Positions 3,001 through 20,393 of a stretch of DNA of 20,844 bases are shown piece by piece. Position 1 is the first letter of the stretch; each line of letters starts with the position of its first letter. Source of the DNA: a virus. The stretch covers positions 1 to 20,844 of IMG/VR virus record IMGVR_UViG_3300020446_000100, one strand, 5' to 3'. Both the position numbers and the translations under genes were made by a program. The notes under the pieces were generated by a model. It did not search any database, was not told the DNA's origin, and was given only the letters and a program-made list of their open reading frames with translations.

Positions 3001-6000
3001 ACCATCATCTGGTGCATCTGGTACAATTGTGGGTACAGTTAAAAATGATAATATAATTGTATTGAAAGAAGTTACTGGTACATTTGATGAAACTGGAACT
3101 TTCTCAGCTGCAATCAAAACATTTGATATTTTATTAGATCAAAGAAGTTCTTACACTAAAGGTGCTACATTAAGTCTTACTGATGGTGTCAATGCTCCTA
3201 TTGCCACTGCTGAGGTATTAGAAGGAACATCTGCTCAAAACGTAGTCCAAATCAAAGTTCTTACGGGCACATGGATAGTTGATGATAATTATTTCTTACA
3301 GTCTGATGATTTGTTTAATACATCTGGAACTAGAATTGTAAGACTTACAACTCTTAGTGATGGATTAGAACCATTTGAAGTTAACCAAAGTGTTGCATTA
3401 GTAGAGACATCAGAAAATCATGGGTTAGGAATTGGAGACAAAGTAAACATTGATATCAATCCTAATGACGCAACAAAAACTAAATTATATTATGTAAGAA
3501 AGAGGTTATATCAAGAAGCAATTCTGACACCTCCTAGTGCTAAAACAAGTATTAATTTTACGGGGATAGGACGCTATGACATACTCAATGGAGGAGCAGA
3601 TTATACTGCTGGAACTTACACTAGTGTTGCTCTTACTGGCGGATCGGGTACTGGTGCCACTGCTACATTTACTGTATCTGACGCTGGCATAGTATCTGGT
3701 ATACAAATACAAGATGCTGGTGTAGGTTATGCACGAGGTGACTTTTTATCTGTTGCTGATGAAGACCTAGTAAGATCTGGTGCATCACAATCCACTGCAA
3801 GATTTACCATTTATGTGGGACACGTTGGTATTGCTGCTGGTGTAACAAAAGTTACAGTTGACAATACACAAGGATTTTCAACAGATGATCTAATACAAAT
3901 TGGTCAAGAAATTTTAAAAATTGTTGGCATAAACGGGAATGATATTTCTGTAATTAGAGGACAAGAAGGAACTTCTGATGTAGATCATTTTGATGGACAG
4001 GAGGTATCTCTTTATAAAGGTCAATATAACTTTACAAATAATTACCAAATATTTACTGGTGCGTTATCTGGTTTCATACAATCATATGATCCTGTATCAC
4101 ATAAGATAGTTGTTGTATATGATTATGCAACATTAAACACTAACGCAAATAAAGTTGTATTAAGTTCTAGTTTCTTTGACACTAGCACACCACAAAGATT
4201 GGTCTCTGTTACCTCGGCAAAAGATGTATTGTATAAGTTTGAATTTTCAGATGATAATAATACATTTGTACCAAATCCTAATTTAGATCTACAAGAATTC
4301 TATAAGTACAAATTCGATACGTCTCATTCTAGTCTCACTGGGACTTATTTTGATATTAGTCCAAGTAGAAATTATAATTTAATTACTGTAGAAAAAACAG
4401 AGTCTACAATATTACCTGGCAATGCAGGATCATTTACAGATGTTAAATTTGGATTTGGTTATAGAATTTCTACTAACATCTATCAAACAAAAATAGGAAC
4501 AGATTTCACAAACTTCTATTACTTTGACAATAAAAATGTAGTAGATGCAGAAGGATCATTCTTTAAAATTATAACAGACCCACTACAAGGAACTAAGACA
4601 CTCAATTATGTTACACCGAATCGTTTTGTATATGATGTTAGCAGTGAACCTCTTTGGGATGGTTCTGGATCCATTTCTTATACTACTACTGGTCAGTTCG
4701 CAATCGGAAAAATTAATGAAATCAGTATAGTAAACTTAGGATTAAATTATAAAAAAGTTCCAGTAATTAGTGGTGTTGACCCATCAGAATCATACAGAGC
4801 AGAAGCAACTGTATCATTTGATGCAGCGTCTCAAATAATTACTGGTGTCAATATTACAAATGAAGGATCTAATTACGTAAATCCTAAAGTTATAATTACA
4901 AAATCTGATGGTGTTGATGCAAAATTCAATGTTCTTGTGAGAGATGGTAAAGTTACCTCTATCACAGTAGATAAACCAGGTAAAGGTTATACCTTTGCAC
5001 CAGAGATTGTTATTGTTGAAGGAGATGTAGAAGCGTATGCTGTTAGTAGTAGCATAGGAGTTCCACAAACTGTAAGAATAACATCAAATGGTGGTGCTTT
5101 CCATTTAGATAAAACTGTATCTTCAACCTTCCGTTCTAATTACATTCTTGCTTTAAAAAATTACAATGGTAATTTTAGATTGGGAGAACAAGTAGTACAA
5201 AAGATTAATAATACAGAAGTATTTCGAGCAACAGTTATAGAATGGAGATTTGGATCTAATTTACTTAAGGTAGCAAACTCTACTGGTATTGTTCGTGAAG
5301 ATGTTCCTATAGAGTCTACATTGATGCCAGTTTCTGGTGTTGTACAATCTATATTTGTAACTATATTTGATGAGGAGATATCTAGTTTTTATGACAATTT
5401 AGGTTTTTATCAATCGGATAGAGGTAAGTTAGGTGTATCAAATCAAAAGATAACAGATAGTTTCTTCTATCAAGATTATTCGTACGTTGTTCAATCAAAA
5501 ACTCCTATTGACCAATGGCGTGATCTAATAAAATCTACAACTCATCCTGCAGGATTTAAGTTATTTGGACAAGTTGATGTAGAGGCAACTGCTAGTTCAG
5601 AGATGCCAGTAAATATGCCAAAGTCGGATCATTTTACTGTAATACAACTTTGGGATCCTAATAAAAATAAAATCACAGTTGAGAATACAAGAAGAACTGT
5701 TACCCAAACTGTGCAGAAGGTAGAAAATCAAAGAATACGTAGAGGTTTCGGTACAGCAGCAACAAGTGAATTTAATTTCAATGAAGTAGAGATATTTGAA
5801 TTTACATTAGGTGCATCATTTGATGGAGCATTTGACAATGATGGTAGATTACAAGGAACTACATCATTTGATACCTTGAAAAATGGATTAGCATTTTCTC
5901 TTGCAGATGGTAAGCAGAAAAATATGATTGTAACTCTTGATGGAGTTATACAAGAACCTGGCATTTCTTATACTATAAGCAATGGTAAAATTGTATTTTC

Positions 6001-9000
6001 AGAACCACCTCTTGCTGGTGTTAGTTTTTATGGAAAAGTATTTACATTTAAAGATGATCAATACAATACAAAATATTTTAAAAAGATAAGAAATATTTTC
6101 CAACGTGGTGGCACTTGGATTGATGCAGCAAATCAAATTGAAAGAAATGTAGGGTTTATTGTAGATGAGACTGTTGGATATGGTAAGGCAAATTATCCAT
6201 CATTAGATTGGGCAACTAAACAAGATGATTATGAAGCAAATATTAGAGCAATATTGGATGCTTACCAACATGATATAAGATTTGGAGGTAACATTAAAAC
6301 TATTGATTATTCATCAATATTCAATAACGATAGTGATTATCTATACATTCAGAATTACAAAGATGAATCTATTAATATATTTGAGTATGCTACTAGATTA
6401 GCGAAATTGGCGATTCGTAACTGGGACTTTATTGATGTTGGTATTGAATACATTCAAGGTCAAAACACAATAAAAGTTACAAGCACAAAAAATCTTGCTG
6501 TTGGTTTATTTGTTAGTTCTGGTAAATCATATCCAGAAGGAACTAAAATTGTATCTATTGATAGTGAAACACAAGTCACAGTAAGTAATGCTGCACTTGC
6601 AAACTCTGGTGGTGGAGGTGGTGCACCATCTGGAACTACTCCTATAAGTGGTACAAGTGGTACAACTACTATTGGTACTAATACAGCACAAGTTCCATTA
6701 GGAGGAACATTTGCTGTGCCACCTGGCTCAACTGTCACAGTACCTCTTTCATTCTCAGGTTCAACACAAGCAAAATTTGGTTGGAGTGCATTGAACAATG
6801 GCATGTTCTATAAAGCAGGAGAGTTAATAGAGAAAAATACAACAGAAATTATTCAAATAGCATTAAACGCAACTCAAACACAATATCCAAACTTAGGTTG
6901 GGGTGGAGGTCCTGGCGTAGCACCATTTTATCCTCTTCAAATGAGACCATTAATAGAGGCGTATGTGTATCATCTTAAATTAGGTGGTAACTTTAAAATT
7001 GTAGAGAATGCACAAGCATATTACAAAGAAAATGATTATCCATATGGTGAAGAGTTATATTATGATACATCAACAATAGGCACAGTTCAAAAAGGAATCA
7101 CTGGAACTGTAGAGTCAACAATTTACATAATGGATCAGGTTAAGATTGCTTGTATACAGGCAATGAGAAATCAATTGTCAATTACAGATCCTAATGTATT
7201 GGTTGATTCACTATCTCCTGCATGTGCAGAGGTAGAGAGTACACTTAACACATACCATAGTATTACTGAGACTATTATTACAGAAGGGCGTAGTCTTGTA
7301 GAAAAGACACCACAGAATCAAAATAAATCTGGTAATTGGACTAACACAGTAACATACTCCAATTACAATATTCTTGGTGATCCTTTGTTACCAGAACAGG
7401 AATGTAATACTGTAATTTCTGCAATGGATTCTCTATACGATAATTTGAGTGATACCATCAAAGAAGAATCTGTAACAAGAAGTTTACCTGATTTTATTGA
7501 CGGTGAGACTACAGATTTTGAATTATATTGGGATGATAATACAGAAGTCAATACAGAAGAAGATGAGGATTTATTTGTTACAATCAACTCTGTATTACAA
7601 AGACCTAAGTTTACAGAAAATTATCCACTAAAAGATGCATATTGGATTGATAGAACTGTTATTCCTAACGTAATTAAGTTTGATGTTGCTCCTATATGGG
7701 ATCAAGATCTAGGTGCTAAAACTATTGGCGAACCAACTGCGGTAGAAAAAATTGCAGGGATTGGTGTTGGTAATTATAAGAGACTCACAATTGATTATGA
7801 ATTAGTAGATGGAGTTAGAAACGGACCTTTCTTAATTCTTGATGTATTGGATGGCACTGTGCAAAGTATCGAGTCTGAAGATAGTTTGTATGTATTTTTA
7901 GATGGTGTATTACAAGTAAAAGGAAAGGCGTATACAGTGTCAGGTCCTAACATCACATTCCATGATTCTATTAAAAAAGAAATGCAGATTGATATGCGTT
8001 ATCTTTATGGTAGAGATGTTGGACAGATATTAAACATATATGATTTTGCACCTGACACTTACTTTGGTCAAGGAAGTTTTTCATTCACCTCCTCTCAAGT
8101 GATTATGGATGAATTCTTGAGATATACATGGATGGGCAACAAAATTGGTAATCCTATTCATGTTTGGCAGTTAAGAGCGAATGGAACTAAAAATGTTATT
8201 GGTGAGATTACAAATCCAATTAGAAATGGAAATAATGTTGCATTTACATTGAAGTGTCAGAACCCTAATATAGAAGCTGGTTTAAATTACACATTTGCAT
8301 CTAAGGGTGATTATAGTAATGTGTACGTGATAGCAGATGCTGATATATCAAATGATCTTCTTGATTTTAAGAAAGATAGTAATGGTAGAAAAATATTACG
8401 AGATGCTAATGGTGACTGGTTCGGAACTTCTTATGGTAAAACATATAAAGCACCATTTGTATATCTCTCTAACGATGACAACATAAGAGTAGATGGAGAG
8501 GACGGATTTAGAAGAATCAAAAAACTTCCTACAGAATCTATAAGTAAAGATGGTAGAGATGGAGAACAAACTTCTGATGATATTTTTAGTGCAGTCTCAA
8601 TTGAGTCTTATACTGGAATTACGAGAGGAGAGGGTTTATCTGTAGTAGCGACTATAGAGAATGGATCTGTTATATCACTCACATGGAACCAACGTAATTA
8701 TGATCCACTCACACAACCAACTGCATATCAATACTTCACACCTCCCATACTTAAGTTTGAATCATTAGATGGTAATGGTGGTGGTGCTAGAGCAAATGTA
8801 TTAGTAAGTAAAGGACAAGTCATTAGTGTTGACTTACTAGATGGTGGTTCTGGATACACTAAAGCACCTAAAGTAATTACAACAAGAGGATTTGATCTTC
8901 TAACTGAAAGAGATATTGGTGTATCATTAATAAACGTAGGGGTTGTACCTTACATAGAAACAGGTGGATTGTTTGCTTTATCTGTCGTTAGTGAGATTGA

Positions 9001-10357
9001 AGAAGCTGGTTTAGATACTGTGACTAGCAGTAATAGTGTAACATTTGGAGAAATAACTGATGCAACAATATCATTAGAAAGAGAGTTTACTCCCGATGAG
9101 TTAGAGGTATTCTCTATTGGAGGTGGATTAGACCCACAAAGAGATTACTTACAAATTGACTTTAAACGTCCTACTCCATCAGCTCTAATTCAAGCATTTG
9201 ATACACAAGTTGATGCTACTGTGCTTTCTGCAGAGGTTCAAGATATTGTATCTCTAAATTCTATTTCTACTGTTTCTAAAGCAATTACAGCAACTACGCA
9301 AATTGATATTCTTAATAATGCAATATCAAATGTTAACTTCTTTGAGAATGCTGCATTATTGGATCTTGACTTTAATATTGGTGATGTTATTGCATACATT
9401 GCTGATACATCTAAGTTTGCTCCTAGTGGCAGATTGATGATTGGTGATGAAGTTGTATTCTATCAGAAAAAACTTAATGATAGATTCTATCAAATTATTA
9501 GAGGATATGAAGGAACACCAGAAAGAGATTGGGTTGCTGGAACATATCTTAGACAGATTGAAGACATAACTGTTATATCTGCTGGTCTAGTGGATATTGA
9601 GTCTGAGAGTGATGTTAGAATGGTTGACATCTCAGTAACTGGTGCTGGTATTGAGAGAAATGTACAAAGACAGATTTCTCCATCAAGTGAGATGTCTGTA
9701 ACCAAAGAACATCTACAAGTTGAATTAATACCACCAGGAAGTGGTGCGATAGATGTATATCTGGAGACTGCATTTATAAATGATCCTATCTTACTAAGAG
9801 ATGGAACTACAGTTGATCTACTTGAAAATAATGTTGGAAACTTCACTGTTACTAAACGTAATGGAACTATAATTGAAATTAGAAATGAGAGATTTGGAAC
9901 TGCTGATTACATTGGAAATTACGCACCTACAAACGTAGGTCCTACTATTGGTAACTGGCAATACATATCATTTGATGATGGAGTTTGTGATGTATCTAAT
10001 TTAACTATTGCTGATCTTACTCAATATTTCCCTGCTTTAACTGTGGGTGATTTTACTGAAAGAAAAACATCTAGTTTCACTAAATCTGGAGAGAAATTTA
10101 ATCTTGGATTACCATCAATTCAAAATCCAGTGGCATTTAGTCAAACTGGCACAGCACCAATTCCAAATACAATATTAGTTGCTAATACCACTTTCTTCCC
10201 AACATCTGGATACATTTATCATTCTAATGGAGGTAATATATTTGGAGTGATTAAGTACACTGGTAAGACAGGAAATGCGTTTACTGGATGCACCCTACAT
10301 AGTGGTAGTAATCAGATTACGTCTGGATCTGAGATAGTACCTATATCAATCGTATAA
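44..10357 (+). CDS. gp7: Giant gp7-like baseplate wedge protein with many inserted modules (3437 aa)
   Basis: Probable baseplate wedge component. Residues 7-65 and 155-215 (key segment VDKRTLIKNIQNFYKAKGTD) followed by 235-300 resemble the C-terminal half of T4 gp7 (DKRDAVARFFESRSYDFYSTKG). Residues about 1817-1850 (PIDQWRDLIKSTTHPAGFKL) match the later gp7 segment around RWKSDVIRFVHPVGFGF. Between and after them lie inserted modules: IGDE-type repeats (72-126, 325-375, 1265-1322, 3112-3170, 3376-3430), G-x-G-Y repeats (548-690, 1178-1245, 1560-1663, 2861-2951), GE/SGA repeats (915-1090, 1709-1766), a YHYH domain (727-863), DGVLQ modules (1961-2005, 2509-2550, 2615-2657) and duplicated helical domains (2027-2134, 2258-2384). 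T4 gp7 is about 1030 residues, so this is more than three times larger and lacks the T4 N-terminal part. The start is supported by GAG at 34-36, seven bases upstream of ATG. No signal peptide or membrane segment is seen. The gp7 assignment also rests on its place directly before gp8. Confidence 0.75.
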   Translation: MVVVKTKRISTLIETQLPEFISTEYELFSKFVTKYYEQQEVQGGTLDVINNIQKYADIDYYEKNLLRQHDTLVTSISDNDNTIVLQDATSFPKQNGYVRIDDEIIFYETRTDTTLSGCSRGVSGNTKLGDLYNESNFVTTDAAAHAAGQKVFNISNLFLYALVKNFEKQYLGSFPEKYLRGEVDKRTLIKNIQNFYKAKGTDSSIKFVFNTIVSKDTSNKPEVYKPRDFTYKASNADWINVYALKCKVVFGNVNNLVGKKIVQSDTEDTEYADAVVDNVYADGTRDGEVIYNIVLAPETVNGFFNVSTKTQLKTNLSGTASTGDRINVFSTVGWDKTGSILIGDETITFSDKNVTQFIIDERSAQSAVPHVVDTPVYKPVTLSGSGVTLLTMGVVYNLQPSDSQPYSAVGDKIQVSNPGFETADPKIVNVGTNQTRWLLGTGASVNVPTIPSIATSLDQVSTDVSAILADEQYYYIASSSFPSHKILDGSIVSEKLLDQKLLRIIRRQATRTTETYPTPKRDIGIGLNGVPFYGHKDADSIRYGRLEQIKVDLRGTGYARPPFVLIDQVPNKARAILAGQVVESVVVDTNDIFPRVPDILITSGRGAVVRAVVTGGKVTSLILDNPGEFYSSPPQIVIRDNAGRGRFAEFEAVVNTDGQITGFNKIAEGNFYNQNTIIVDVIPVGNGATGIPLLKEWNFNRYKKLESNLDTENGYVFDNFNNVLEYGYGYVANPKALRVSLNDNLNNAGTEPASKSHSPIIGFAYDGNPIYGAFGYENPLNSASSIIRMTSSYSINGGRSEGPDLTNYPIGTFVNDYTYTHKSGTLDENNGRFCITPEFPKGTYAYFITIDSNQVPQYPYILGENFYSLPVDSNYNSNITQDDIPKNAKHFYQAGMPRNGDGFLAQIEEVKQGNVEGVNVVDSSSNFSINSQIYFDNTGTDGSEAEAIISSVKGKPVSYLQSKENKVVKLTVIQSAYLFADDTLNQPSSGASGTIVGTVKNDNIIVLKEVTGTFDETGTFSAAIKTFDILLDQRSSYTKGATLSLTDGVNAPIATAEVLEGTSAQNVVQIKVLTGTWIVDDNYFLQSDDLFNTSGTRIVRLTTLSDGLEPFEVNQSVALVETSENHGLGIGDKVNIDINPNDATKTKLYYVRKRLYQEAILTPPSAKTSINFTGIGRYDILNGGADYTAGTYTSVALTGGSGTGATATFTVSDAGIVSGIQIQDAGVGYARGDFLSVADEDLVRSGASQSTARFTIYVGHVGIAAGVTKVTVDNTQGFSTDDLIQIGQEILKIVGINGNDISVIRGQEGTSDVDHFDGQEVSLYKGQYNFTNNYQIFTGALSGFIQSYDPVSHKIVVVYDYATLNTNANKVVLSSSFFDTSTPQRLVSVTSAKDVLYKFEFSDDNNTFVPNPNLDLQEFYKYKFDTSHSSLTGTYFDISPSRNYNLITVEKTESTILPGNAGSFTDVKFGFGYRISTNIYQTKIGTDFTNFYYFDNKNVVDAEGSFFKIITDPLQGTKTLNYVTPNRFVYDVSSEPLWDGSGSISYTTTGQFAIGKINEISIVNLGLNYKKVPVISGVDPSESYRAEATVSFDAASQIITGVNITNEGSNYVNPKVIITKSDGVDAKFNVLVRDGKVTSITVDKPGKGYTFAPEIVIVEGDVEAYAVSSSIGVPQTVRITSNGGAFHLDKTVSSTFRSNYILALKNYNGNFRLGEQVVQKINNTEVFRATVIEWRFGSNLLKVANSTGIVREDVPIESTLMPVSGVVQSIFVTIFDEEISSFYDNLGFYQSDRGKLGVSNQKITDSFFYQDYSYVVQSKTPIDQWRDLIKSTTHPAGFKLFGQVDVEATASSEMPVNMPKSDHFTVIQLWDPNKNKITVENTRRTVTQTVQKVENQRIRRGFGTAATSEFNFNEVEIFEFTLGASFDGAFDNDGRLQGTTSFDTLKNGLAFSLADGKQKNMIVTLDGVIQEPGISYTISNGKIVFSEPPLAGVSFYGKVFTFKDDQYNTKYFKKIRNIFQRGGTWIDAANQIERNVGFIVDETVGYGKANYPSLDWATKQDDYEANIRAILDAYQHDIRFGGNIKTIDYSSIFNNDSDYLYIQNYKDESINIFEYATRLAKLAIRNWDFIDVGIEYIQGQNTIKVTSTKNLAVGLFVSSGKSYPEGTKIVSIDSETQVTVSNAALANSGGGGGAPSGTTPISGTSGTTTIGTNTAQVPLGGTFAVPPGSTVTVPLSFSGSTQAKFGWSALNNGMFYKAGELIEKNTTEIIQIALNATQTQYPNLGWGGGPGVAPFYPLQMRPLIEAYVYHLKLGGNFKIVENAQAYYKENDYPYGEELYYDTSTIGTVQKGITGTVESTIYIMDQVKIACIQAMRNQLSITDPNVLVDSLSPACAEVESTLNTYHSITETIITEGRSLVEKTPQNQNKSGNWTNTVTYSNYNILGDPLLPEQECNTVISAMDSLYDNLSDTIKEESVTRSLPDFIDGETTDFELYWDDNTEVNTEEDEDLFVTINSVLQRPKFTENYPLKDAYWIDRTVIPNVIKFDVAPIWDQDLGAKTIGEPTAVEKIAGIGVGNYKRLTIDYELVDGVRNGPFLILDVLDGTVQSIESEDSLYVFLDGVLQVKGKAYTVSGPNITFHDSIKKEMQIDMRYLYGRDVGQILNIYDFAPDTYFGQGSFSFTSSQVIMDEFLRYTWMGNKIGNPIHVWQLRANGTKNVIGEITNPIRNGNNVAFTLKCQNPNIEAGLNYTFASKGDYSNVYVIADADISNDLLDFKKDSNGRKILRDANGDWFGTSYGKTYKAPFVYLSNDDNIRVDGEDGFRRIKKLPTESISKDGRDGEQTSDDIFSAVSIESYTGITRGEGLSVVATIENGSVISLTWNQRNYDPLTQPTAYQYFTPPILKFESLDGNGGGARANVLVSKGQVISVDLLDGGSGYTKAPKVITTRGFDLLTERDIGVSLINVGVVPYIETGGLFALSVVSEIEEAGLDTVTSSNSVTFGEITDATISLEREFTPDELEVFSIGGGLDPQRDYLQIDFKRPTPSALIQAFDTQVDATVLSAEVQDIVSLNSISTVSKAITATTQIDILNNAISNVNFFENAALLDLDFNIGDVIAYIADTSKFAPSGRLMIGDEVVFYQKKLNDRFYQIIRGYEGTPERDWVAGTYLRQIEDITVISAGLVDIESESDVRMVDISVTGAGIERNVQRQISPSSEMSVTKEHLQVELIPPGSGAIDVYLETAFINDPILLRDGTTVDLLENNVGNFTVTKRNGTIIEIRNERFGTADYIGNYAPTNVGPTIGNWQYISFDDGVCDVSNLTIADLTQYFPALTVGDFTERKTSSFTKSGEKFNLGLPSIQNPVAFSQTGTAPIPNTILVANTTFFPTSGYIYHSNGGNIFGVIKYTGKTGNAFTGCTLHSGSNQITSGSEIVPISIV
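2222..2632 (+). other. YHYH-type domain inside the gp7-like protein
   Basis: Residues about 727-863 contain SHSPIIGFAYDGNPIYGAFG (756-775), then NDYTYTH (815-821), a LDENNGRF segment, FPKGTYAYF and YPYILG (858-863). This order is characteristic of the YHYH domain family found in secreted and surface proteins, and annotated in some marine phage structural proteins. The eponymous motif is degenerate here, reading YTYTH. Its role in the virion is unknown to me. Confidence 0.7.
6122..6445 (+). repeat. Helical module, copy 1 (protein-level repeat)
   Basis: Residues 2027-2134 form a mainly helical module with DAANQIERNVGFIVDETVGY, then YPSLDW, then IRAILDAYQHDIRFGGN, and end in ATRLAKLAIRNW. The H-D-x-R-x-GGN centre and the closing A-x-RN element are shared with the module at 6815-7195. 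I recognise this as a recurrent domain of marine T4-like phage structural proteins; its function is not known to me. Confidence 0.7.
6602..6766 (+). other. Gly/Thr/Pro-rich low-complexity hinge
   Basis: Residues 2187-2241 begin NSGGGGGAPSG, continue with TTPISGTSGTTTIGTN, and end in a VPPGSTVTVPLSFSGST stretch. The composition is low-complexity and differs from the flanking helical modules, so it is probably a flexible linker that lets the two modules move relative to each other. Confidence 0.65.
6815..7195 (+). repeat. Helical module, copy 2 (protein-level repeat)
   Basis: Residues 2258-2384 repeat the architecture of copy 1: AGELIEKNTTEIIQIALNAT, YPNLGW, RPLIEAYVYHLKLGGNFKI, then a Tyr-rich stretch and IACIQAMRNQL. 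It is followed by two related C-x-x-V-x-S helices, ACAEVESTLNTY (C2394) and ECNTVISAMDSLY (C2454), sixty residues apart. The copies have diverged strongly, so the duplication is old. Confidence 0.65.
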
Positions 10358-10360
10358 ATA
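10353..10360 (+). promoter_or_regulatory. T4-type late promoter, first copy
   Basis: The sequence is TATAAATA, the T4 late promoter consensus recognised by the phage sigma factor gp55 with gp33 and the sliding clamp. It overlaps the TAA stop codon of the gp7-like gene and points towards gp8. The ten bases CGTATAAATA recur exactly twelve bases downstream. Confidence 0.8.
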
Positions 10361-10364
10361 AACG

Positions 10365-10372
10365 TATAAATA
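10365..10372 (+). promoter_or_regulatory. T4-type late promoter, second copy
   Basis: This is a second perfect TATAAATA, 40 bases before the gp8 ATG. By T4 spacing, transcription would begin near 10378, giving a 5' leader of roughly 35 bases. With the upstream copy it forms a tandem late promoter for gp8 and the genes after it. Confidence 0.8.
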
Positions 10373-10412
10373 ACTCAGGCACATATTACAATAACGTCGG
10401 AACAGAAAAAAA

Positions 10413-12227
10413 ATGGCTGCTATTATCTCTGATAAGTTTAGAATTTTTAACGCTAAACAATTTTTAGAATCTTTAACCGAAGGTGCAACGGACACCAGTG
10501 CGGAAAGATCAAGAATGTATTTCTTTGTGGGAAGACCACAACCGTGGAAAGCATATTTGGAAATACATACCAAAAATTCTACGGCTTTCATAGTCGGTAA
10601 TGAAGTATATGTTGGTACATATGGATCAACTGCTTTTCGTGCCACAGTTTCTGCAGTTTACGACAACTCTTTATTATTGACCGACGTTTTTGGAAGTAAT
10701 GGTGTTAACTCTGCTCCTCCTCTAGGATCTGCATTAAAAGGTAGAACAGGTGGTGCTGGTGGTTCTGACACAGGTGCTACAGCAGTCTCTGGTGTATATC
10801 GTTACGCTACAGAAGATGTTCCACCACTTCCTCTAGACAATCAAAGAGAAAAGATTGCTCTATATGACGAATTGATTGCTGCCAAGCGTATTACTGATTC
10901 ATTTGCAAGAACAGTTATCCGTCGTTACAACTGGGATCTAGTTGCTAACCCTAAGTTTGACATGTGGAAACCTGACTATTCTGCTACTCCTGGTGGCGGT
11001 GGTCAGATTGGTAAATCTACTGCAACAGGTGCTACAAGTATTGCTGATGCTAAGTTCTATGTGATGAACTCTGCATACGAAGTATTCAAGTGTCTTTACA
11101 ACGGTGAAGATCCTTCAAACACAACAGGTCAAAACGCAACAGAGGAACCATTGGTTTCTGGTGCTAACTATGACTCAGCAACTGGTCTTTATACAGAAAC
11201 AACTGGTGCAGGATACATCTGGAAGTACATGTATACTATTCCTACTGATGATGTTCTTAAGTTTCTTTCATCAGACTTTATGCCAATCGTTCTTCCTGCT
11301 AACGCATCTAGAACGCAAGTTACTGGTATTGCTGTTGCTGGAGCATGTGATGTTGCTCTTATCGAAAATGCTGGATCAGGTCTTCCTGCTTCACAAACAT
11401 TATACACTAGCATCAAAGGAGATGGCACAGGTGGTAAAGTTAAGTTTGTAACAAATGGTGCTGGTACAATTACATCTGCTGAGATTGAAGCACGTGGATC
11501 AGGTTACACATATGGTAACGTATTGTTTGCAAATGGTAACTTATTCTCTAATGCAGGTTTATCAAGTGCTGTAACAACTGGTGCTTCTGCTGTTGGTGCA
11601 ATCGAAATAGTCATGGCACCAGAAGGTGGTCATGGTTCTGATCATGAGACAGAACTCAATGGTAAGCGTGTTATGACAAACATTCGTCTTACATATTCAG
11701 AAGGTTCTGGAGATTTCCCTGTAGATAACGACTTCCGTCGTATTGGTATTATCGCTGATCCATTTAACTGGGGTACAACAACATTTGCAACAAATGATAC
11801 ACTTAGTGGATTAAAAGCAGTCAAGATTACTGGTGCTACTGCAGATTACTCAGTTGATGAAAAAATTACTCAAACAGTGACTGGTGGTACTGCATATGGT
11901 ACAGTTGTATCATGGACACTTGATAGTGGTTCTACAACTGCTGGTGTTCTTAAGTATATCCAAACAAATGATGCACACACAGACAGTGGCGTTGTGAGAG
12001 CATTTGAGTCAAATGGTTCTAATGCAATTACTGGAGAAATATCTGCTGCATCTGGTAATGTAGATACATCTTATGGATCAACTGCATTAGGTGTTACATT
12101 TTCATCTGGACTTGCTGCTCCTGAGATTGAAAATAACTCAGGTAATGTGATCTATGTTGAGAACAGAAGACTAATCACTCGTGCACCTGACCAAATCGAA
12201 GATATCAAGTTAGTAATTGAATTCTAA
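10413..12227 (+). CDS. gp8: Baseplate wedge subunit gp8
   Basis: Homologue of T4 gp8, which dimerises in each baseplate wedge and contacts gp7, gp10 and gp6. Matching landmarks run in order along both proteins: SDKFRIFNAKQFL (6-18; T4 SKFRTEKMLNF), MYFFVGRPQPW (35-45; T4 ITFGRSEPW), VIRRYNWD (168-175), GAGYIWKYMYTIP (265-277; T4 GDGYVWEYLFEIP), DFRRIGIIADP (440-450; T4 GFRQISIITNP) and the C-terminus YVENRRLITRAPDQIEDIKL (581-600; T4 YMENRPPIIMAMDQTEEINI). At 604 residues it is nearly twice the T4 protein. The excess lies mainly at 46-140, 303-400 and 472-570, which carry the same module types as the neighbouring giants. The leader has only a weak purine stretch (GGAA at 10399-10402) before ATG. 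Arginine codons are about half CGT, unlike the AGA-dominated flanking gene. Confidence 0.95.
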   Translation: MAAIISDKFRIFNAKQFLESLTEGATDTSAERSRMYFFVGRPQPWKAYLEIHTKNSTAFIVGNEVYVGTYGSTAFRATVSAVYDNSLLLTDVFGSNGVNSAPPLGSALKGRTGGAGGSDTGATAVSGVYRYATEDVPPLPLDNQREKIALYDELIAAKRITDSFARTVIRRYNWDLVANPKFDMWKPDYSATPGGGGQIGKSTATGATSIADAKFYVMNSAYEVFKCLYNGEDPSNTTGQNATEEPLVSGANYDSATGLYTETTGAGYIWKYMYTIPTDDVLKFLSSDFMPIVLPANASRTQVTGIAVAGACDVALIENAGSGLPASQTLYTSIKGDGTGGKVKFVTNGAGTITSAEIEARGSGYTYGNVLFANGNLFSNAGLSSAVTTGASAVGAIEIVMAPEGGHGSDHETELNGKRVMTNIRLTYSEGSGDFPVDNDFRRIGIIADPFNWGTTTFATNDTLSGLKAVKITGATADYSVDEKITQTVTGGTAYGTVVSWTLDSGSTTAGVLKYIQTNDAHTDSGVVRAFESNGSNAITGEISAASGNVDTSYGSTALGVTFSSGLAAPEIENNSGNVIYVENRRLITRAPDQIEDIKLVIEF

Positions 12228-12242
12228 GCATCGTAAAACTTC

Positions 12243-12250
12243 GCTAAATA
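12243..12250 (+). promoter_or_regulatory. Late-promoter-like element inside the hairpin 5' arm
   Basis: GCTAAATA resembles the T4 late consensus TATAAATA, differing at the first two positions; CTAAATA-type variants fit the relaxed late motifs of marine T4-like phages. With T4 spacing, the RNA would start near 12256, inside the loop, and would lack the 5' arm of the hairpin. Promoter activity is an inference. Confidence 0.5.
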
Positions 12251-12279
12251 ATATGACGAGAATACTAGTATTATTTGGC

Positions 12280-12283
12280 GGAG
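12280..12283 (+). promoter_or_regulatory. Shine-Dalgarno GGAG of the DUF4815 gene
   Basis: GGAG lies four bases before ATG 12288 and fixes this start. It is the strongest ribosome binding site in the window, and it is entirely within the 3' arm of the hairpin. Confidence 0.75.
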
Positions 12284-12287
12284 TAAG

Positions 12288-15200
12288 ATGCCTCAAAAGA
12301 CGAACCTAAACGTAAGCCCATATTACGAAGATTTTGATGCGAAAAAGAATTTCTACAAGATTCTGTTTCGACCTGGTTATTCTATACAAGGTAGAGAATT
12401 AACACAGATACAATCAATTCTTCAAAACCAAGTAGAGAGCTTTGGAAAATTTGCCTTTAAACAAGGTGAACTTGTAATTCCTGGTGAAGTAGGACTTAAC
12501 ACAAAATTAGATTACGTAAAACTATCATCTGTTTCTGAAGTTGCAGTTAATGATGGTCAAGGTAATATTGTTTTTAAAAAATTTGATATAACTCAATTAG
12601 TTGGAGAAGAACTTATTGGGTTAACTTCTGGTGTCAAGGGAAAAATAGTTTCCACGAAACTGGCAACAGAAAGCACAGCAGATACTTTGTTTGTAAATTA
12701 CGTCAATAGTGGTTCGTCTAACACTGAGACTACATTTAGACAAGGTGAGACTCTAGAGGTAGTTGATGGCGTCAATACTCCTCTATTAGTTGTAGGTACA
12801 GATGGTAGTGTTTTACCAACTAGTATTCAAATAACAAATCCTGATACAGGTGAGGTAACTTCATTAGAAAGTCCTGCTATGGGATTTGGTTCTGCTGTCA
12901 AAGTAGAAGAGGGTATTTACTTTGTCAATGGTTACTTTGTTCGTTGTAATGCAGAATTGCTAGTTATTGATGAATATTATGACAAACCATCTGCAAAAGT
13001 TGGTTTTACAATTAAAGAGGATATTGTTACTCCAGAGGAAGATCCGTCACTATATGATAATGCAATAGGATCTTCTAACTACACTGCACCTGGCGGACAT
13101 AGATTAAGGATATCTCTCATATTAAAAGAGTTTGCTCTCAATGCAATCACTGATAAGAATTTTATACAACTTCTTACAGTATCAAGAGGAGTAATCCAAA
13201 GAAAGGTTGAATCTACAGATTTTAGTGTATTAGAACAAACACTTGCTCGTAGAACTTTTGATGAGTCTGGAGATTATGTTGTAGATAATTTTTCTGTAGA
13301 TATCAGAGAGTGGGCACAGAAAGATGGCAACAGAGGTCTATATGCTGTAGATGAATTTAGTTTGTTTAATGGATTAAATGCAACCGAAGCATCTAGAAAA
13401 ATGGTTGCTAGTATAGGACCAGGTAAAGCATACATCAAAGGTTTTGAGATTGTTAATAAAGAAACTAAGTATCTTGAAATAAACAAAGCTAGAGAAAGTC
13501 TCTCTACTGACAATGTAACTCTAAAATCTAAAGGTCTTCCATCATTTAGTGTTACCAATGTATTTGGTAGTGTTCCTCTAAACAAAGAAGGATCTGATCT
13601 TACTGCATATCCTGATGTATTTTTGTATAGTACATTTAATGATGGTTCAATTGGATTAAACGATACAGAATTATCTGGAGACCATAGACAAACAATTAGT
13701 AGAAGAGGACTTACTTTTACTCCTAATGATGGTATAAAAACAATTACTTTACAGATTACAAATCCAACAACTTTGATTGGTGCTGTAACAGATGCAACAT
13801 TTCAAAGTCAGTTCGGAACTCTTTACTATGTTAAAACAAGAAGTGATGTAGGTAGTACAACAGGAGTTGGTTCTTTTAAAACATTATCATTTGCTACCAC
13901 TAATAAACCACTTGTTAACTCATCAGTATCTGTTCAATTTTTAGAACTTACTATTTTTGGTGAAAAAGATGAATTAGAAAATTTACTATTAGAATATGAT
14001 TTAGGTGATGATGAATTTAAAAGAAAAATTTTCTTGACTCAAGGATCTGCACAAACAAATAACTCAGGAGATGAGTTTGGATTTATTGTAGATTATTCTC
14101 CAACAATTACTCCTGTAATTGGTAAAGCAAAACCAAATAACTTCTTCTTGAAAGAAAGAGGTTCTGGATTTAATTCAGATTCAGACATAGTTCTTTCTAG
14201 AGGTCGTCTTGCTGCTGGAACTAATGCATACAATACTACATTTGGATTTTCATATTTTGATCCTCAGTTCTTTACTAAAATTATTTTAGAATCAGTTCCT
14301 AGTGGAACCAATGCTTTTGACGAAGGTAAATATGTATTTGGAGTCAATAGTGGTGCTTATGGAGTTGTAGAGGGAACTGCCTCTGGTGTATATTCAACAG
14401 GAACTATCTTGTTTGTAAAAACTTTATCTGGTAGATTTTTACCTGGCGAGACAATTAGAGATGAGGGTGGTGTAACTGTAAAGATTGCAAAAGAAAATAC
14501 TATATCTCATTTCGTTGTTCAAAATAGAGGATTAGGATATGCGGATGGTGCTACTTTATTGGTAAATGGATTAGAATTTGATAGTTCTAAAATAGAGTTA
14601 TTGAGAAGTGGAAGTGGTGCAATTTACAAAGCATCTATTGCTAATAGATCTGCTGTTGGTATAGAATACGCACAACCTCCTGCAATTACTGTAAAAAATC
14701 CTGATGGTGCAGCTGCACCTAGTTCTGGTGCTTCAGTTGTTCCAATATTATACAGAAACACAGTAACTACATATACACCACAAAATGTAAAATCTATAGG
14801 ATGTTCTTATGGTTCTGGAAATGCTAATAGTTTCTCTGCCGATGTTGTTGTAGACAGTCAAAAGTATTCTGAGATTAAGACTGTTACTGATTATACATTC
14901 TTTGGTTATCAGGGATCCATGTATATAGAATCAACAAGTTTTAGTGCTGATGCATCTACTGTTGTGCAACAAGGAGATCTTATACAGTTCTCTGATGATA
15001 ATAATAATCTTGTTAGATCTATCGTTCAATTTGCCACACAGCAAGAGGGATCATATAAATCTAGAATTTACTTAGATACAGCTTTACCAGGTTCTGTAAC
15101 CAACGCTAGTATTGTAAGATTACGTCCTATAGTAAACAATGCTGCGAGTGGAACATTATTATATGAAACTGGTAGTAAACAAGTATCTAAAATTTCTGCT

Positions 15201-18200
15201 GGTGGTGATGACACTAAAATTAAATACTTCTTCCGTAGAGATTTTGTAACTACCGCAACTACAGGTGGTGGTGTAATTACATTTGCTGCACAGTTACCAT
15301 TTGGTACACAGAGATTTGCTGCATTTAGCGAAGAGAATTATATTATTACTGTATTAGATGCTGGTGATGCACCTGACATCGTAAAGGGTGATATAGTATA
15401 CGTCCCAGAGGATGTTGTAGATATTTCATCTGCCACAGATACTGCTAGTGGTCTTACATCTGGTAGTATTAGTTTACAGTTACCATCAACATATTTTGGA
15501 TCTATTCCTACAAATGGAACTTTCCCTAGACTTAAGTTGACTGCAACTCTTGAGGTATCTAATGCAAAACCAAGACTTAAAACTGTAGTAAGAGATAAAA
15601 GAATTACAGTTACATCTGCTGGTGATCGTGTTGTTCCATTAAGAGGTACAGATTATGATACAGAGGTTGTAGAGATTTTATCTTATGCTGATGCTTTTAA
15701 ATTAAATTACGTATATGAAGGAACATCATCACAACCACCTGAGATTGATAGTGCTGGTAATATAATTTCTGGTACAGATGTTACATCAAGATATACATTT
15801 GATACAGGACAAAGAGATACAATCTATGATGTTTCTAGAATTGTATTGAAACCTGGTTTTCAAGAAACCACAGGTCAACTTGTGATATCTTTTGATTACT
15901 TTGAACACTCACAAGGAGATTTCTGTACTATTGATAGTTATCTACATGAAGCAGGAGTTTCAGAAGATGAGATTCCTACATTTGATTCATCCGTATTAGG
16001 TATAGTAGAACTTAAAAATGTAATTGATTTTAGACCAAAAGTAGATAGCACTGCTATTATACCAGGTTTCCTTGATACATCAACATTAGAGAGAACTGAA
16101 GGATCATTCTCTGGTGCTGGTGCTATTGTTTCTAGTAGTCCTGCTCCCGATAAAAACTTAGAGTTTACTTTCTCATTCAGTCAAGTTCAATACTTAGATC
16201 GTATTGATGGAATATTCTTAGATAAAAAAGGAAACTTTGTAGTCAACGAAGGTAACTCATCTCTAAACCCAACTAAACCAGATCCAATAGAAGATGCTGT
16301 TGCATTATTCTATGCGTATATCCCTGCATTTACTAAGACAAGTAAGGATGTAAGAGTTACTCCTGTGGACAATCGTCGTTATACAATGCGTGACATTGGT
16401 AAGTTAGAGAAACGTATTGAAAGATTAGAATACTACACCACACTTAGCATACTAGAACAGCAAGCACTTAACATGCAAGTTAAGGATGAGATTGGTCTAG
16501 ACAGATTTAAGTCTGGTTTTGTTGTGGATAATTTTGAAGCACATAAAGTTGGTAATCTTAAGTCATTAGATTATCGTTGTGCTGTTGATGCTCAACAATC
16601 TGTATTACGTCCTCAATCAAAAGAAGATTCTATAGGTTTAAAAGAAGTCAATACAAGACAAGATCAAAGAGCAGTTTCTGGATATCAAAAATCAGGACAT
16701 ATGGTGACATTGCCATATTCTCCATTATCATTGTTAGGAAATAATTTTGCTTCTTCTACATTAAATCCAAATCCATTTGTTGTACTACAATACGTTGGTG
16801 ATGCTGATGTATCTCCATCAATAGATCAATGGTATGATGACAGTATAGAACCAGTTGTTGTAGATACAAATACAGATCTATTCAACATATTCTTAGCAAA
16901 AGAAAGTGTAAAAGAAAGTTTTTCTAGTTTACATAACTCATTTGTTATTAACTGGGTAGGTGCTTCTTCATCATTCACTGCTATCAATTCTTTGGGTGAA
17001 GTTAACACACAAGTTGCTAATACATCTGTTCAGAATGCATCAGTAGGAAGTTCTTCTAATATTAGTCCTCAAAATAATGAGGTAGGTAAAGGATTGCAAA
17101 CTAAAACAGTGGGTGACAACATTGTCTCTACATCATTATCATTCTTTGCAAGAAGTAAACCTATCAAGTTTAAAATTGGTAGAATGAAACCTAATACAAG
17201 AATTTACGTATTCTTAGAGGGTAGAGATATTAGTCGTTGGATAAATCCTGACCTTAGATTTACAGGTGTTGCAGGAAATTCTTTATCAGCATTTAACGGT
17301 CCTATAACAACTGATGAATATGGTAATGCGTCTGGTTTAATTATTTTACCAGCTGGATCACCTCCTAATGAAAACGCAACATGGACAGGTGATCTTGATA
17401 CTGTAGGATATGATACATCAGCAGAGGCGTTGAATTTTACTACAGGAATTCTCACATTTAGGTTTACATCAAGTGCTACTAATCAACCAAAAGCAGAGGT
17501 AGACACATACACAGAGGTTAAGTATTATGCTACTGGTATTCTTCCAGAGAATCCCTCTAGTATTGTTTCTACAAAACCATCTATCTTTAAATCTAACGAA
17601 GGTGTTCAGTTAATTGAAAGCAATACTGATAATCCTGTAAGACCCAATCCTCTTGCACAAACATTTAAGGTAGAGAATTTAGATGGTGGATGTTTTGTAA
17701 CAGGTGTTGATTTATACTTTAACAAGAAAAGTTCTACGATTCCTATCAAGACATACATCTCAAATGTAGATGCTGAAAAACCAGCAAAAAATATTGTGCC
17801 AGGCAGTGAAAAAACATTAACACCAAATACATTTTTAAAATGTGCTGCTAGTGGAAATATGTCGATATTTAAAGGTGAAAATGTTACTGGTGCATCATCA
17901 TCTGCATCAGGTCCTATCTTATCAGTGTTTGATAAGAACAATGTAGAATTGGTTGCAACTGCAGCTGGTAGATACAGTCTTACAAATGAACAATGTTACA
18001 CTGTTGTTCTTAGCAATCATAATGGTAAATCATTCATACCCAATGAGGATTTAATTATTCCATCTGTCACTCTTGCTAATGATACAGGCGGTACAGATTT
18101 TGTTCTTTCTATTGTAAAAGATAGTGGTAAATTATCTGATATTAGAATTACAAATACAGGTTTGAATTACGATAGTGCAATTCTTACTATTGAGAGTCCA

Positions 18201-20393
18201 CAACTACCTGGCGGATCTACTGCCACAGCAAGTATCGAGGTTTCTGGTGGTAAAATTTATAATGCTGAAGTAGCACTTAGTGGATTTGGATATACAGAAG
18301 CACCATCAGTTGTTGTCAAAGGCGTCGGAAATGGTGCTGGAGGATGTGAAATACAAACCTTTATAGAAATAGATACACCAGCAGTTAGAATGGGCGTAGC
18401 GACTGATCAGGAAGGTGTCACAGAATCAACAACACCTACACATTTTGCTTTTGATTATCCTGTATATTTGCAAAATGATACTGAGTATGCCCTTACAGTA
18501 GAAACAGATTCTATTGATTATGAGTTATGGTCATCTAAATTAGGAGAGACCGATATAGCAACAAGTACGGTCATCACCACCCAACCATCATTAGGTTCGG
18601 TTTACCGATCACAAAACACTGAGAGTTGGACTGAGGATATATTTGAAGATCTTAAATTCACATTATATCGTGCAGAATTTGATGTGTCTAGACCAGCAGA
18701 ACTATTAATTAAAAATGATAGTTTAGGTTATGAGTTATTAGATAATAATCCATTTGAAACTAATGCGAGTGCGAATACAAATTCCACATCTAAATTATTT
18801 AAAAATAACAACACCATAATCAAAGTAAACCACAGAGATCATGGATTTGAAACTAGTGGTAAGTCGTACGTATTTTATAGAACTGCTAAGGAAATAGGTG
18901 GTATTACATCATCTATTTTGAATGAGTCATTATTCCAAATAAGCAACTCTGGTATTGACACATATAACATAAAATCATCTTCTCAAGCTGCTGGTAATTC
19001 TGTTGGTGGTGGAGATCTTGTGTATGCATCATTCAATAGAAAATTTGAAACATTGTATCCACAGGTATCATACTTGTCATTTACTGGAACTAAATTAAAC
19101 ACAGAAGTTAAGACAACTAATGTTGTTCCTGTAGATTCTACTTCTACAAATTTTGACTCTTATTCATCAGCAAGTTATGAGAAAACATTTTTGAATGAAC
19201 CTCATTATTTCACTAACCAAAAATTTATTGCATCTGATATTAATGAAACTTTGAACAATCTATCTCAATCATTAACTTACAAAATGACGATATCGTCTAC
19301 TTTGTCTCATTTGAGTCCAATAATAGATTTATCAAGTGCTACTGTCAAGACAGTTACAAATAGAGTTGAAAACGCTAAGGGTCAAGAAGATAGATTTGGT
19401 AGAAGAGATCAAATTGTAGAGTTCTTCCCTGTTTATCAATTTAATCTTGCAGGAAATGGTGGTACACAACTACAAGCAGATCAAACAATTAAAGGCGTAA
19501 CTACAAAAACAACTGGTACTATTGCTAGAGTTGATGGTCAAGTTGTATATGTCAGAGTAAAGACAAGTCAATTCTTCCAAAAAGGAGAGACAGTAACACT
19601 AGGAAATCAGTTAAGTCTTACGAACGTTGTTGTAGATTCAAATCCATCACAAGTATTTGCTTCTATAAATGATGCTGCTACTATCGTTGCACGTAATCCA
19701 AATGTATTGAATGATACTTATGATAATGTGATTACTGGTAAGGCAACTATTTGGAATACTCAAACTCAACAATTAACATTGAGAGTTGACACTAATCCAA
19801 TTAATGATGACTTTACTAGTAGAATAATTGACAATGTTCTTTATAATAGAAATGCTGTTACTGGAGATCAGATTGCTGACATATTCCGTGTAGGAGACTT
19901 TATTAAATATCCTAATCAACCAGATGAAGAAAATGCATATCTTGAGGTTGGAAAAATAACTTATACTAATGGTCTAGATTTTGTTGCTGAAGATACATCT
20001 AAGAATGGTTCTTCTATTGCTAAGTATGTAACTAAAGAGGTTACCATATCAAATCCTGCAACTGCAATTGATGTACATCTACTAGCAAATGTTAGAGATA
20101 TAGAAAACTTAAAAGTATTCTATAAATTTAAGAAAGCATCTAGTCAAGAAAACTTTGATGATATTGATTGGATATTCTTTAATGAAAATGGAGAACCTGA
20201 TGTATTTGAGATTGCATCAAGTGAAAATACAATTTCTGGAATTGTAGAGAAACAATCCTCATATCAAGATTTGAAATATAGCGTTTCTGATCTTCCAGAA
20301 TATTCATCATTTGCTATCAAAATAGTGATGACTGGCACTGATCCATCATATGTTCCTAAGGTACAGGATATAAGAGCAGTAGCTGCGTTCTAG
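12288..20393 (+). CDS. DUF4815-type giant virion structural protein (2701 aa)
   Basis: Probable peripheral baseplate or fibre-attachment protein, in the place of T4 gp9/gp10 after gp8. The N-terminus (PYYEDFDAKKNFYKILFRPG, 11-30, then SIQGRELTQIQSIL, 32-45) is the opening signature of DUF4815 phage proteins. Other family-like parts are the KAYIKGFEI segment near 380, the VIDFRPKVDST segment near 1245, a helical stretch KLEKRIERLEYYTTLSILEQ (1372-1391), and a late domain 1787-2140 running from PLAQTFKVENLDGG to QPSLGSVYRSQNTESW and FTLYRAEF. Inserted modules include GE/SGA repeats (103-160, 678-745, 1858-1890, 2395-2445) and G-x-G-Y repeats (621-640, 740-830, 1941-2015). The C-terminus, with LKYSVSDLPEYSSFAIKIVM and a VPKVQDIRAVA end, resembles that of other marine phage structural proteins. 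I see no resemblance to T4 gp9 or gp10 and no signal peptide. Structural role is an inference from family and position. Confidence 0.8.
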   Translation: MPQKTNLNVSPYYEDFDAKKNFYKILFRPGYSIQGRELTQIQSILQNQVESFGKFAFKQGELVIPGEVGLNTKLDYVKLSSVSEVAVNDGQGNIVFKKFDITQLVGEELIGLTSGVKGKIVSTKLATESTADTLFVNYVNSGSSNTETTFRQGETLEVVDGVNTPLLVVGTDGSVLPTSIQITNPDTGEVTSLESPAMGFGSAVKVEEGIYFVNGYFVRCNAELLVIDEYYDKPSAKVGFTIKEDIVTPEEDPSLYDNAIGSSNYTAPGGHRLRISLILKEFALNAITDKNFIQLLTVSRGVIQRKVESTDFSVLEQTLARRTFDESGDYVVDNFSVDIREWAQKDGNRGLYAVDEFSLFNGLNATEASRKMVASIGPGKAYIKGFEIVNKETKYLEINKARESLSTDNVTLKSKGLPSFSVTNVFGSVPLNKEGSDLTAYPDVFLYSTFNDGSIGLNDTELSGDHRQTISRRGLTFTPNDGIKTITLQITNPTTLIGAVTDATFQSQFGTLYYVKTRSDVGSTTGVGSFKTLSFATTNKPLVNSSVSVQFLELTIFGEKDELENLLLEYDLGDDEFKRKIFLTQGSAQTNNSGDEFGFIVDYSPTITPVIGKAKPNNFFLKERGSGFNSDSDIVLSRGRLAAGTNAYNTTFGFSYFDPQFFTKIILESVPSGTNAFDEGKYVFGVNSGAYGVVEGTASGVYSTGTILFVKTLSGRFLPGETIRDEGGVTVKIAKENTISHFVVQNRGLGYADGATLLVNGLEFDSSKIELLRSGSGAIYKASIANRSAVGIEYAQPPAITVKNPDGAAAPSSGASVVPILYRNTVTTYTPQNVKSIGCSYGSGNANSFSADVVVDSQKYSEIKTVTDYTFFGYQGSMYIESTSFSADASTVVQQGDLIQFSDDNNNLVRSIVQFATQQEGSYKSRIYLDTALPGSVTNASIVRLRPIVNNAASGTLLYETGSKQVSKISAGGDDTKIKYFFRRDFVTTATTGGGVITFAAQLPFGTQRFAAFSEENYIITVLDAGDAPDIVKGDIVYVPEDVVDISSATDTASGLTSGSISLQLPSTYFGSIPTNGTFPRLKLTATLEVSNAKPRLKTVVRDKRITVTSAGDRVVPLRGTDYDTEVVEILSYADAFKLNYVYEGTSSQPPEIDSAGNIISGTDVTSRYTFDTGQRDTIYDVSRIVLKPGFQETTGQLVISFDYFEHSQGDFCTIDSYLHEAGVSEDEIPTFDSSVLGIVELKNVIDFRPKVDSTAIIPGFLDTSTLERTEGSFSGAGAIVSSSPAPDKNLEFTFSFSQVQYLDRIDGIFLDKKGNFVVNEGNSSLNPTKPDPIEDAVALFYAYIPAFTKTSKDVRVTPVDNRRYTMRDIGKLEKRIERLEYYTTLSILEQQALNMQVKDEIGLDRFKSGFVVDNFEAHKVGNLKSLDYRCAVDAQQSVLRPQSKEDSIGLKEVNTRQDQRAVSGYQKSGHMVTLPYSPLSLLGNNFASSTLNPNPFVVLQYVGDADVSPSIDQWYDDSIEPVVVDTNTDLFNIFLAKESVKESFSSLHNSFVINWVGASSSFTAINSLGEVNTQVANTSVQNASVGSSSNISPQNNEVGKGLQTKTVGDNIVSTSLSFFARSKPIKFKIGRMKPNTRIYVFLEGRDISRWINPDLRFTGVAGNSLSAFNGPITTDEYGNASGLIILPAGSPPNENATWTGDLDTVGYDTSAEALNFTTGILTFRFTSSATNQPKAEVDTYTEVKYYATGILPENPSSIVSTKPSIFKSNEGVQLIESNTDNPVRPNPLAQTFKVENLDGGCFVTGVDLYFNKKSSTIPIKTYISNVDAEKPAKNIVPGSEKTLTPNTFLKCAASGNMSIFKGENVTGASSSASGPILSVFDKNNVELVATAAGRYSLTNEQCYTVVLSNHNGKSFIPNEDLIIPSVTLANDTGGTDFVLSIVKDSGKLSDIRITNTGLNYDSAILTIESPQLPGGSTATASIEVSGGKIYNAEVALSGFGYTEAPSVVVKGVGNGAGGCEIQTFIEIDTPAVRMGVATDQEGVTESTTPTHFAFDYPVYLQNDTEYALTVETDSIDYELWSSKLGETDIATSTVITTQPSLGSVYRSQNTESWTEDIFEDLKFTLYRAEFDVSRPAELLIKNDSLGYELLDNNPFETNASANTNSTSKLFKNNNTIIKVNHRDHGFETSGKSYVFYRTAKEIGGITSSILNESLFQISNSGIDTYNIKSSSQAAGNSVGGGDLVYASFNRKFETLYPQVSYLSFTGTKLNTEVKTTNVVPVDSTSTNFDSYSSASYEKTFLNEPHYFTNQKFIASDINETLNNLSQSLTYKMTISSTLSHLSPIIDLSSATVKTVTNRVENAKGQEDRFGRRDQIVEFFPVYQFNLAGNGGTQLQADQTIKGVTTKTTGTIARVDGQVVYVRVKTSQFFQKGETVTLGNQLSLTNVVVDSNPSQVFASINDAATIVARNPNVLNDTYDNVITGKATIWNTQTQQLTLRVDTNPINDDFTSRIIDNVLYNRNAVTGDQIADIFRVGDFIKYPNQPDEENAYLEVGKITYTNGLDFVAEDTSKNGSSIAKYVTKEVTISNPATAIDVHLLANVRDIENLKVFYKFKKASSQENFDDIDWIFFNENGEPDVFEIASSENTISGIVEKQSSYQDLKYSVSDLPEYSSFAIKIVMTGTDPSYVPKVQDIRAVAAF

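Follow-up and report, generated by a model that had tools for sequence, protein, structure and literature searches.

When a giant structural gene lies close behind a gene read in the same direction, is its protein made from RNA that runs on from the neighbor or from a message of its own? The DNA analyzed here (the window, the whole of the 20,844-base virus record IMGVR_UViG_3300020446_000100) raises this question at the junction between gp8 and a DUF4815 gene. Almost all of the GenBank matches listed for it are Synechococcus and Prochlorococcus phages, pointing to a virus of the T4-like cyanophage kind. Both genes lie on the plus strand, 60 bases apart, and their reading frames have the coordinates given in the original prediction:

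10413-12227, plus strand: gp8, baseplate wedge subunit of 604 amino acids (Pfam PF09215, E 2.8e-11), the source of any read-through RNA
12288-20393, plus strand: gene for the DUF4815 giant structural protein of 2701 amino acids (Pfam PF16075, E 8.5e-47)
10353-10360 and 10365-10372, plus strand: two TATAAATA late-promoter boxes ahead of gp8 (motif match)

The TATAAATA motif occurs twice in the window, both times immediately 5' of gp8. Further upstream, an open reading frame of 3437 residues (44-10357) carries a YHYH Pfam domain (PF14240), with no TAAATA within the 43 bases available 5' of position 44.

The gap between the two genes holds a predicted hairpin, a predicted late promoter, and the ribosome-binding site of the DUF4815 gene, all overlapping:

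12238-12254, plus strand: 5' arm of the hairpin (predicted fold), the outer part of which pairs with the Shine-Dalgarno sequence
12244-12250, plus strand: CTAAATA, within the 5' arm, predicted to be a late promoter box of the gp55 type
12255-12257, plus strand: predicted RNA start, placed 5-7 nt past TAAATA by the spacing of T4 late promoters
12268-12284, plus strand: 3' arm of the hairpin (predicted fold)
12280-12283, plus strand: GGAG Shine-Dalgarno sequence, wholly within the 3' arm and fully paired in read-through RNA (predicted fold)

The original prediction of a sixteen-pair hairpin that buries the Shine-Dalgarno sequence and carries CTAAATA in its 5' arm holds, and one pair can be added: positions 12238-12253 pair with 12269-12284 and U12254 with G12268, giving a single unbroken 17-pair helix with a 13-base loop. 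All four bases of GGAG are paired, with C12242, U12241, U12240, and C12239, respectively. The fold is well beyond chance, with a z of -4.7 for 12200-12330 and none of 200 dinucleotide shuffles folding as well. When CTAAATA and GGCGGAGTAAGATG were kept in place and the remainder was shuffled 20,000 times, a helix of at least 17 pairs never appeared and the observed energy was reached six times; the longest helix elsewhere in the 20,844 bases has 14 pairs (63-nt windows, step 10). An Rfam covariance-model search of 10200-12700, at E up to 1, returned no matches. Because the gp8 stop lies 10 bases 5' of the stem, a ribosome ending at gp8 should leave the stem unmelted.

T4 late promoters begin their RNA 5-7 nt past TAAATA, and from this spacing we infer a start at 12255-12257. 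Several features lend circumstantial support to a promoter here. CTAAATA is present in a single copy on either strand of the window (6.8 expected), 66 of 67 leaders have a purine at the sixth position past TAAATA, and TAAATA boxes are found about 25-50 nt 5' of many structural genes in the cyanophage S-WAM2. The identity of the late-box motif is known from both T4 and cyanophages, according to the available part of PMC2984593. Within the stem region 12244-12278, the reverse strand reads CCAAATA, and the U-G pair kept in the RNA makes the opposite strand an inexact late box; perhaps this avoids antisense late RNA.

Judging from the folding models, we consider it reasonably probable that the junction carries a start-site gate on DUF4815 translation of the T4 gene e type. 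RNA running on from gp8 would contain both arms, so the hairpin would fold and hide GGAG from the ribosome. The late sigma factor gp55 would start RNA from CTAAATA at about 12255-12257, just past the 5' arm, and the resulting message, lacking that arm, would form no stem and leave GGAG open. DUF4815 would then be translated from a late message of its own instead of arising as a by-product of gp8 transcription.

The T4 genes e, soc, 49, and I-TevI provide the model for such control: long transcripts of e are silenced 100-fold, and the 5' strand is missing from the late RNA (PMC3014915, in the part available). I-TevII, I-TevIII, segB, and Aeh1 mobE have been added to the set of genes with hidden sites, and 25 and 26 have been named as repressed, in the accessible sections of PMC2988022. 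The control of e (on which the original prediction drew), 49, and I-TevI is reported in these parts of both papers, and the layout was reproduced when we folded T4 leaders with the same program: in e, 49, and I-TevI, TAAATA falls within the 5' part of a stem whose pairing takes in the start region, and in I-TevI ATAAATAC pairs with GTATTTAT, much as CTAAATA pairs in the window. In soc, pairing covers the start codon, but the TATAAATA box is outside the stem. The DUF4815 junction shares with e, 49, and I-TevI the late box in the 5' part of the stem, the start region in the 3' arm, a co-directional upstream gene, and, by prediction, the loss of the 5' strand from RNA begun at the promoter. It differs from the T4 leaders in the gene and host group concerned, in a terminator added at 46 of 97 junctions (described below), and in that its gate is predicted from sequence.

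A further difference lies in timing, as upstream RNA is early or middle for e, soc, 49, and I-TevI, whereas gp8 is a late-type gene. The idea that the hairpin would silence early read-through RNA while sparing late RNA therefore fits poorly: since gp8 has its own two late boxes, read-through RNA would also be late, and a gate would sort RNAs by start site more than early from late. Upstream of gp25-gp6 in S-WAM2, and on the same strand, lies a series of small genes of unknown function, from which early RNA may come.

Relatives were collected in two scans, the best 80 viral loci of each giving 160, with some contigs present twice. Counting the window, both gene ends were found in 153 of 161 loci, and these yielded 97 distinct gp8/DUF4815 junctions, the window's own included. 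TAAATA precedes the start in 95 of the 97, and in 92 of those 95 at least eight pairs span the predicted RNA start, the exceptions being L065, L073, and L077. An exact pattern for one class of leader matched 99 stretches in the viral collection, and the 80 listed of these 99 all precede DUF4815. Built from 30 leaders and run on 24 sources, a covariance model placed the element at the gp8/DUF4815 junction in the window and in eight named phages. Over these 24 sources, the whole S-WAM2 genome included, it found no site outside that junction; four weak minus-strand matches fall at the same sites as plus-strand ones. In S-PM2, S-CAM1, S-CAM3, and Syn1, the junction has a gap of 33-55 bases in which the stem was not found. 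Seven phages that are more distant have no room for it, their two genes overlapping or being at most 14 bases apart. The hairpin/promoter element is confined to one cyanophage clade. In the S-WAM2 copy of the DUF4815 leader, the enclosing pairs do not exceed those of shuffles (p 0.185, z -2.0); among 27 late boxes in that genome, three beat shuffles in enclosing pairs at p < 0.05 (gp13, gp18, and a gene at 143205), DUF4815 not being one of them. The same junction in Syn1 (L183, 522-570) has a different strong hairpin of -24.1 kcal/mol with the late box CCTAAATA in its loop, which stops short of the start region, and no Shine-Dalgarno motif was recognized there.

The junctions also differ in what precedes the late box. 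At 46 of the 97, a hairpin followed by at least eight T's lies between the gp8 stop and the box (for example, in L005, L018, and L022), and all 46 of these hairpins have energies of -7 kcal/mol or lower. On a tree of 92 rows, the terminator changes eight times and the hidden start seven times. A link between the terminator and a relaxed stem was considered and dropped: the raw contrast in Shine-Dalgarno openness, with vs without the terminator, is strong (0.62 vs 0.01 in 44 vs 43 leaders, p 5e-6), but six independent pairs on the tree show no association and are too few to decide.

Predicted accessibility of the Shine-Dalgarno sequence was compared between read-through RNA and RNA begun 6 nt past TAAATA in 89 leaders, six without a recognized Shine-Dalgarno motif being left out. 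Median openness is 0.26 in read-through RNA and 0.73 in promoter-started RNA; it is higher by more than 0.3 in the latter in 55 of the 89 leaders and lower in two. In the window's own leader (L161), the unpaired probability of GGAG rises from 0.00 to 0.69. Among leaders without an upstream terminator, the class of the window, the Shine-Dalgarno sequence is less than half open in read-through RNA in 41 of 43, and below 0.1 in 23 of 43. With an upstream terminator, it is at least half open in 25 of 44 and less than half open in 19. Read-through openness among named phages is 0.72-0.75 in ACG-2014e, ACG-2014h, and S-CAM4, 0.54 in Sf-CH1b, and 0.25 in S-RSM4, and near 0 in S-B43 and S-H9-1 only.

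A fixed window of -12 to -7, which takes in GGCG, gives a smaller shift, with medians of 0.18 in read-through and 0.27 in promoter-started RNA (an increase in 74 of 95). The start region remains partly structured in the promoter-started RNA because GGCG can pair with UGCC after AUG. Such residual structure would suit a hairpin that acts as a constitutive brake, or as a sensor of temperature or of a bound factor, reducing the giant gene's translation on every RNA whatever its start site. We regard this as very improbable, as 95 of 97 junctions have a late box in the leader's 5' part, so that RNA begun past it would have no brake, and the Shine-Dalgarno sequence itself is predicted to be open in promoter-started RNA.

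The relatives with an accessible start bear on another explanation, namely that the stem serves RNA stability or processing, protecting the 3' end of gp8 RNA or being cut by a ribonuclease, with the hidden Shine-Dalgarno sequence as a side effect. The original prediction had taken relatives with a free GGAG and a stem not conserved by compensatory change as speaking against a switch, and in part of the relatives GGAG or GGAA is indeed predicted to be open, though the promoter-leader stem is kept; that the stem persists in many such relatives would suit a stability role. So would the start of the stem 10 nt past the gp8 stop and the frequency of terminators in this gap, which suggests that transcripts often end there. 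There is also a cyanophage precedent, as the S-PM2d psbA 5'-UTR hairpin has been suggested to affect regulation or stability (PMC5931967, in the section available). The same section describes that leader, like the DUF4815 one, as combining a gp55-type site with a predicted hairpin; it differs in that its gene is an auxiliary one for photosynthesis and the upstream gap measures 232 bp, and neither a promoter within the stem nor a hidden Shine-Dalgarno sequence is stated in that section. Against a stability role, the stem is not itself an intrinsic terminator, there being no T-run at 12238-12290, where AAGATG comes next, and stability alone would need no stem holding both the promoter and the start region. 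We therefore think this explanation unlikely.

A start-site gate would act through RNA pairing, and we examined the stem for signs of it after leaving out L073 and L077 (without the stem) and L078 and L080 (without TAAATA). RNAalifold found no consensus structure over all 67 leaders, whose 3' arms differ by indels of 1-2 nt. On 30 of the 67, hand-chosen for a plain 3' arm without such indels and so biased toward structure, it gave a weak consensus of -2.08 kcal/mol. In these 30 leaders, 88.5% of cells in the 16-pair stem are paired, against 31-55% when the arms are slid by 1-3 columns, and four of the pairs are held in just 9, 20, 21, and 22 leaders. Two-sided changes occur in two of the 16 pairs and in eight cells, a number of cells reached in none of 500 shuffles and a number of pairs reached in 405 of the 500; other changes are mostly one-sided, exchanging G-C or A-U for G-U. 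Across the 67 leaders, own arms pair better than arms swapped among leaders (z -3.5, with 13 of 20,000 permutations reaching the observed mean), the inner part giving a z of -5.3 and the outer part a weak -1.8. Stem pairing is thus kept in the clade, and classical two-sided covariation is thin, perhaps from the 5' arm being constrained by the promoter and the 3' arm by the Shine-Dalgarno sequence. For the original expectation of compensatory change, this amounts to modest support, as pairing is mostly kept but two-sided changes are few.

The same columns speak to whether the inverted repeat works as DNA, as an operator or the remnant of an old divergent late promoter, with RNA pairing incidental. 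The opposite-strand CCAAATA resembles CTAAATA, palindromes of this kind with facing late boxes are found at the T4 divergent pairs 4/53 and 26/51, and our RNA model gives the minus strand at the window's site a score as well, of 27.6 bits. Unlike those T4 palindromes, whose facing late boxes belong to divergent genes, the DUF4815 hairpin lies between co-directional neighbors, and its reverse box is not an exact CTAAATA, the U-G pair responsible being kept in 30 of 30 subset leaders. In addition, stem columns 6, 7, 14, and 16 vary between C-G and U-G or between U-A and U-G in the 30 leaders, so that RNA pairing is kept while DNA symmetry is broken. A role at the DNA level is, in our estimate, rather improbable. 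The T4 hairpins holding late boxes at 53 (record 77349) and 26/51 (record 116454) also pair a Shine-Dalgarno-like AGGAG.

Returning to the start-site gate, the switch as first described is supported by the layout of the site, by its conservation in relatives, and by folding models in which the Shine-Dalgarno sequence is released, and is weaker in timing, covariation, and novelty. Its use for a baseplate gene had been put forward as new; it is less so than claimed, since the T4 baseplate genes 25 and 26 are already listed with hidden ribosome-binding sites (PMC2988022, available portion). Like DUF4815, the T4 baseplate genes 25, 26, 51, and 53 have structured start regions, and there are hairpin late boxes at 53 and between 26 and 51; for gene 25, the part of PMC3014915 at hand describes the structure as improving initiation. 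Among the titles and abstract openings listed for cyanophage and phage late promoters, hairpins, terminators, DUF4815, and Shine-Dalgarno sites, we found no report of the DUF4815 hairpin, which does not prove that none exists. Most likely, the hairpin gate is a new conserved example, in a new gene and a new phage group, and not a new principle. If the gate is real, a control device of a few T4 genes would be a conserved part of the late program of marine cyanophages, isolating a giant structural gene from its upstream neighbor and helping to explain why the amounts of structural proteins need not be fixed by gene order alone. It would also be testable with existing isolates.

A second form of the arrangement is seen ahead of gp13 in S-WAM2 (record 99288), where the late box CTAAATA lies inside an intrinsic terminator just before the gene. 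In the best 80 of 384 related loci, which give 26 distinct 50-base leaders, CTAAATA is enclosed by at least eight pairs in all 26 and followed by at least five T's in 25. Upstream RNA would end at this terminator, and RNA started from the box, having no 5' arm, should run on, which would extend the logic of the gate from translation to transcription. In T4, 12 of 32 TATAAATA sites have at least eight bridging pairs and an energy of -9 kcal/mol or lower; all 12 lack a T-run, so that none of the 32 combines such a stem with one. Placing a late promoter within a hairpin may be a general means of tying a gene to its own start site. More tentatively, and as a possibility we hold with less confidence than the gate on DUF4815 itself, marine T4-like cyanophages could use late promoters in hairpins as one-way gates, in a ribosome form at DUF4815 and a terminator form at gp13, making output depend on a gene's own promoter in crowded late clusters rather than just silencing early RNA. 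At S-WAM2 record 143180, a gene of unknown function is preceded by a second late box that lies in a terminator-like hairpin with a T-run.
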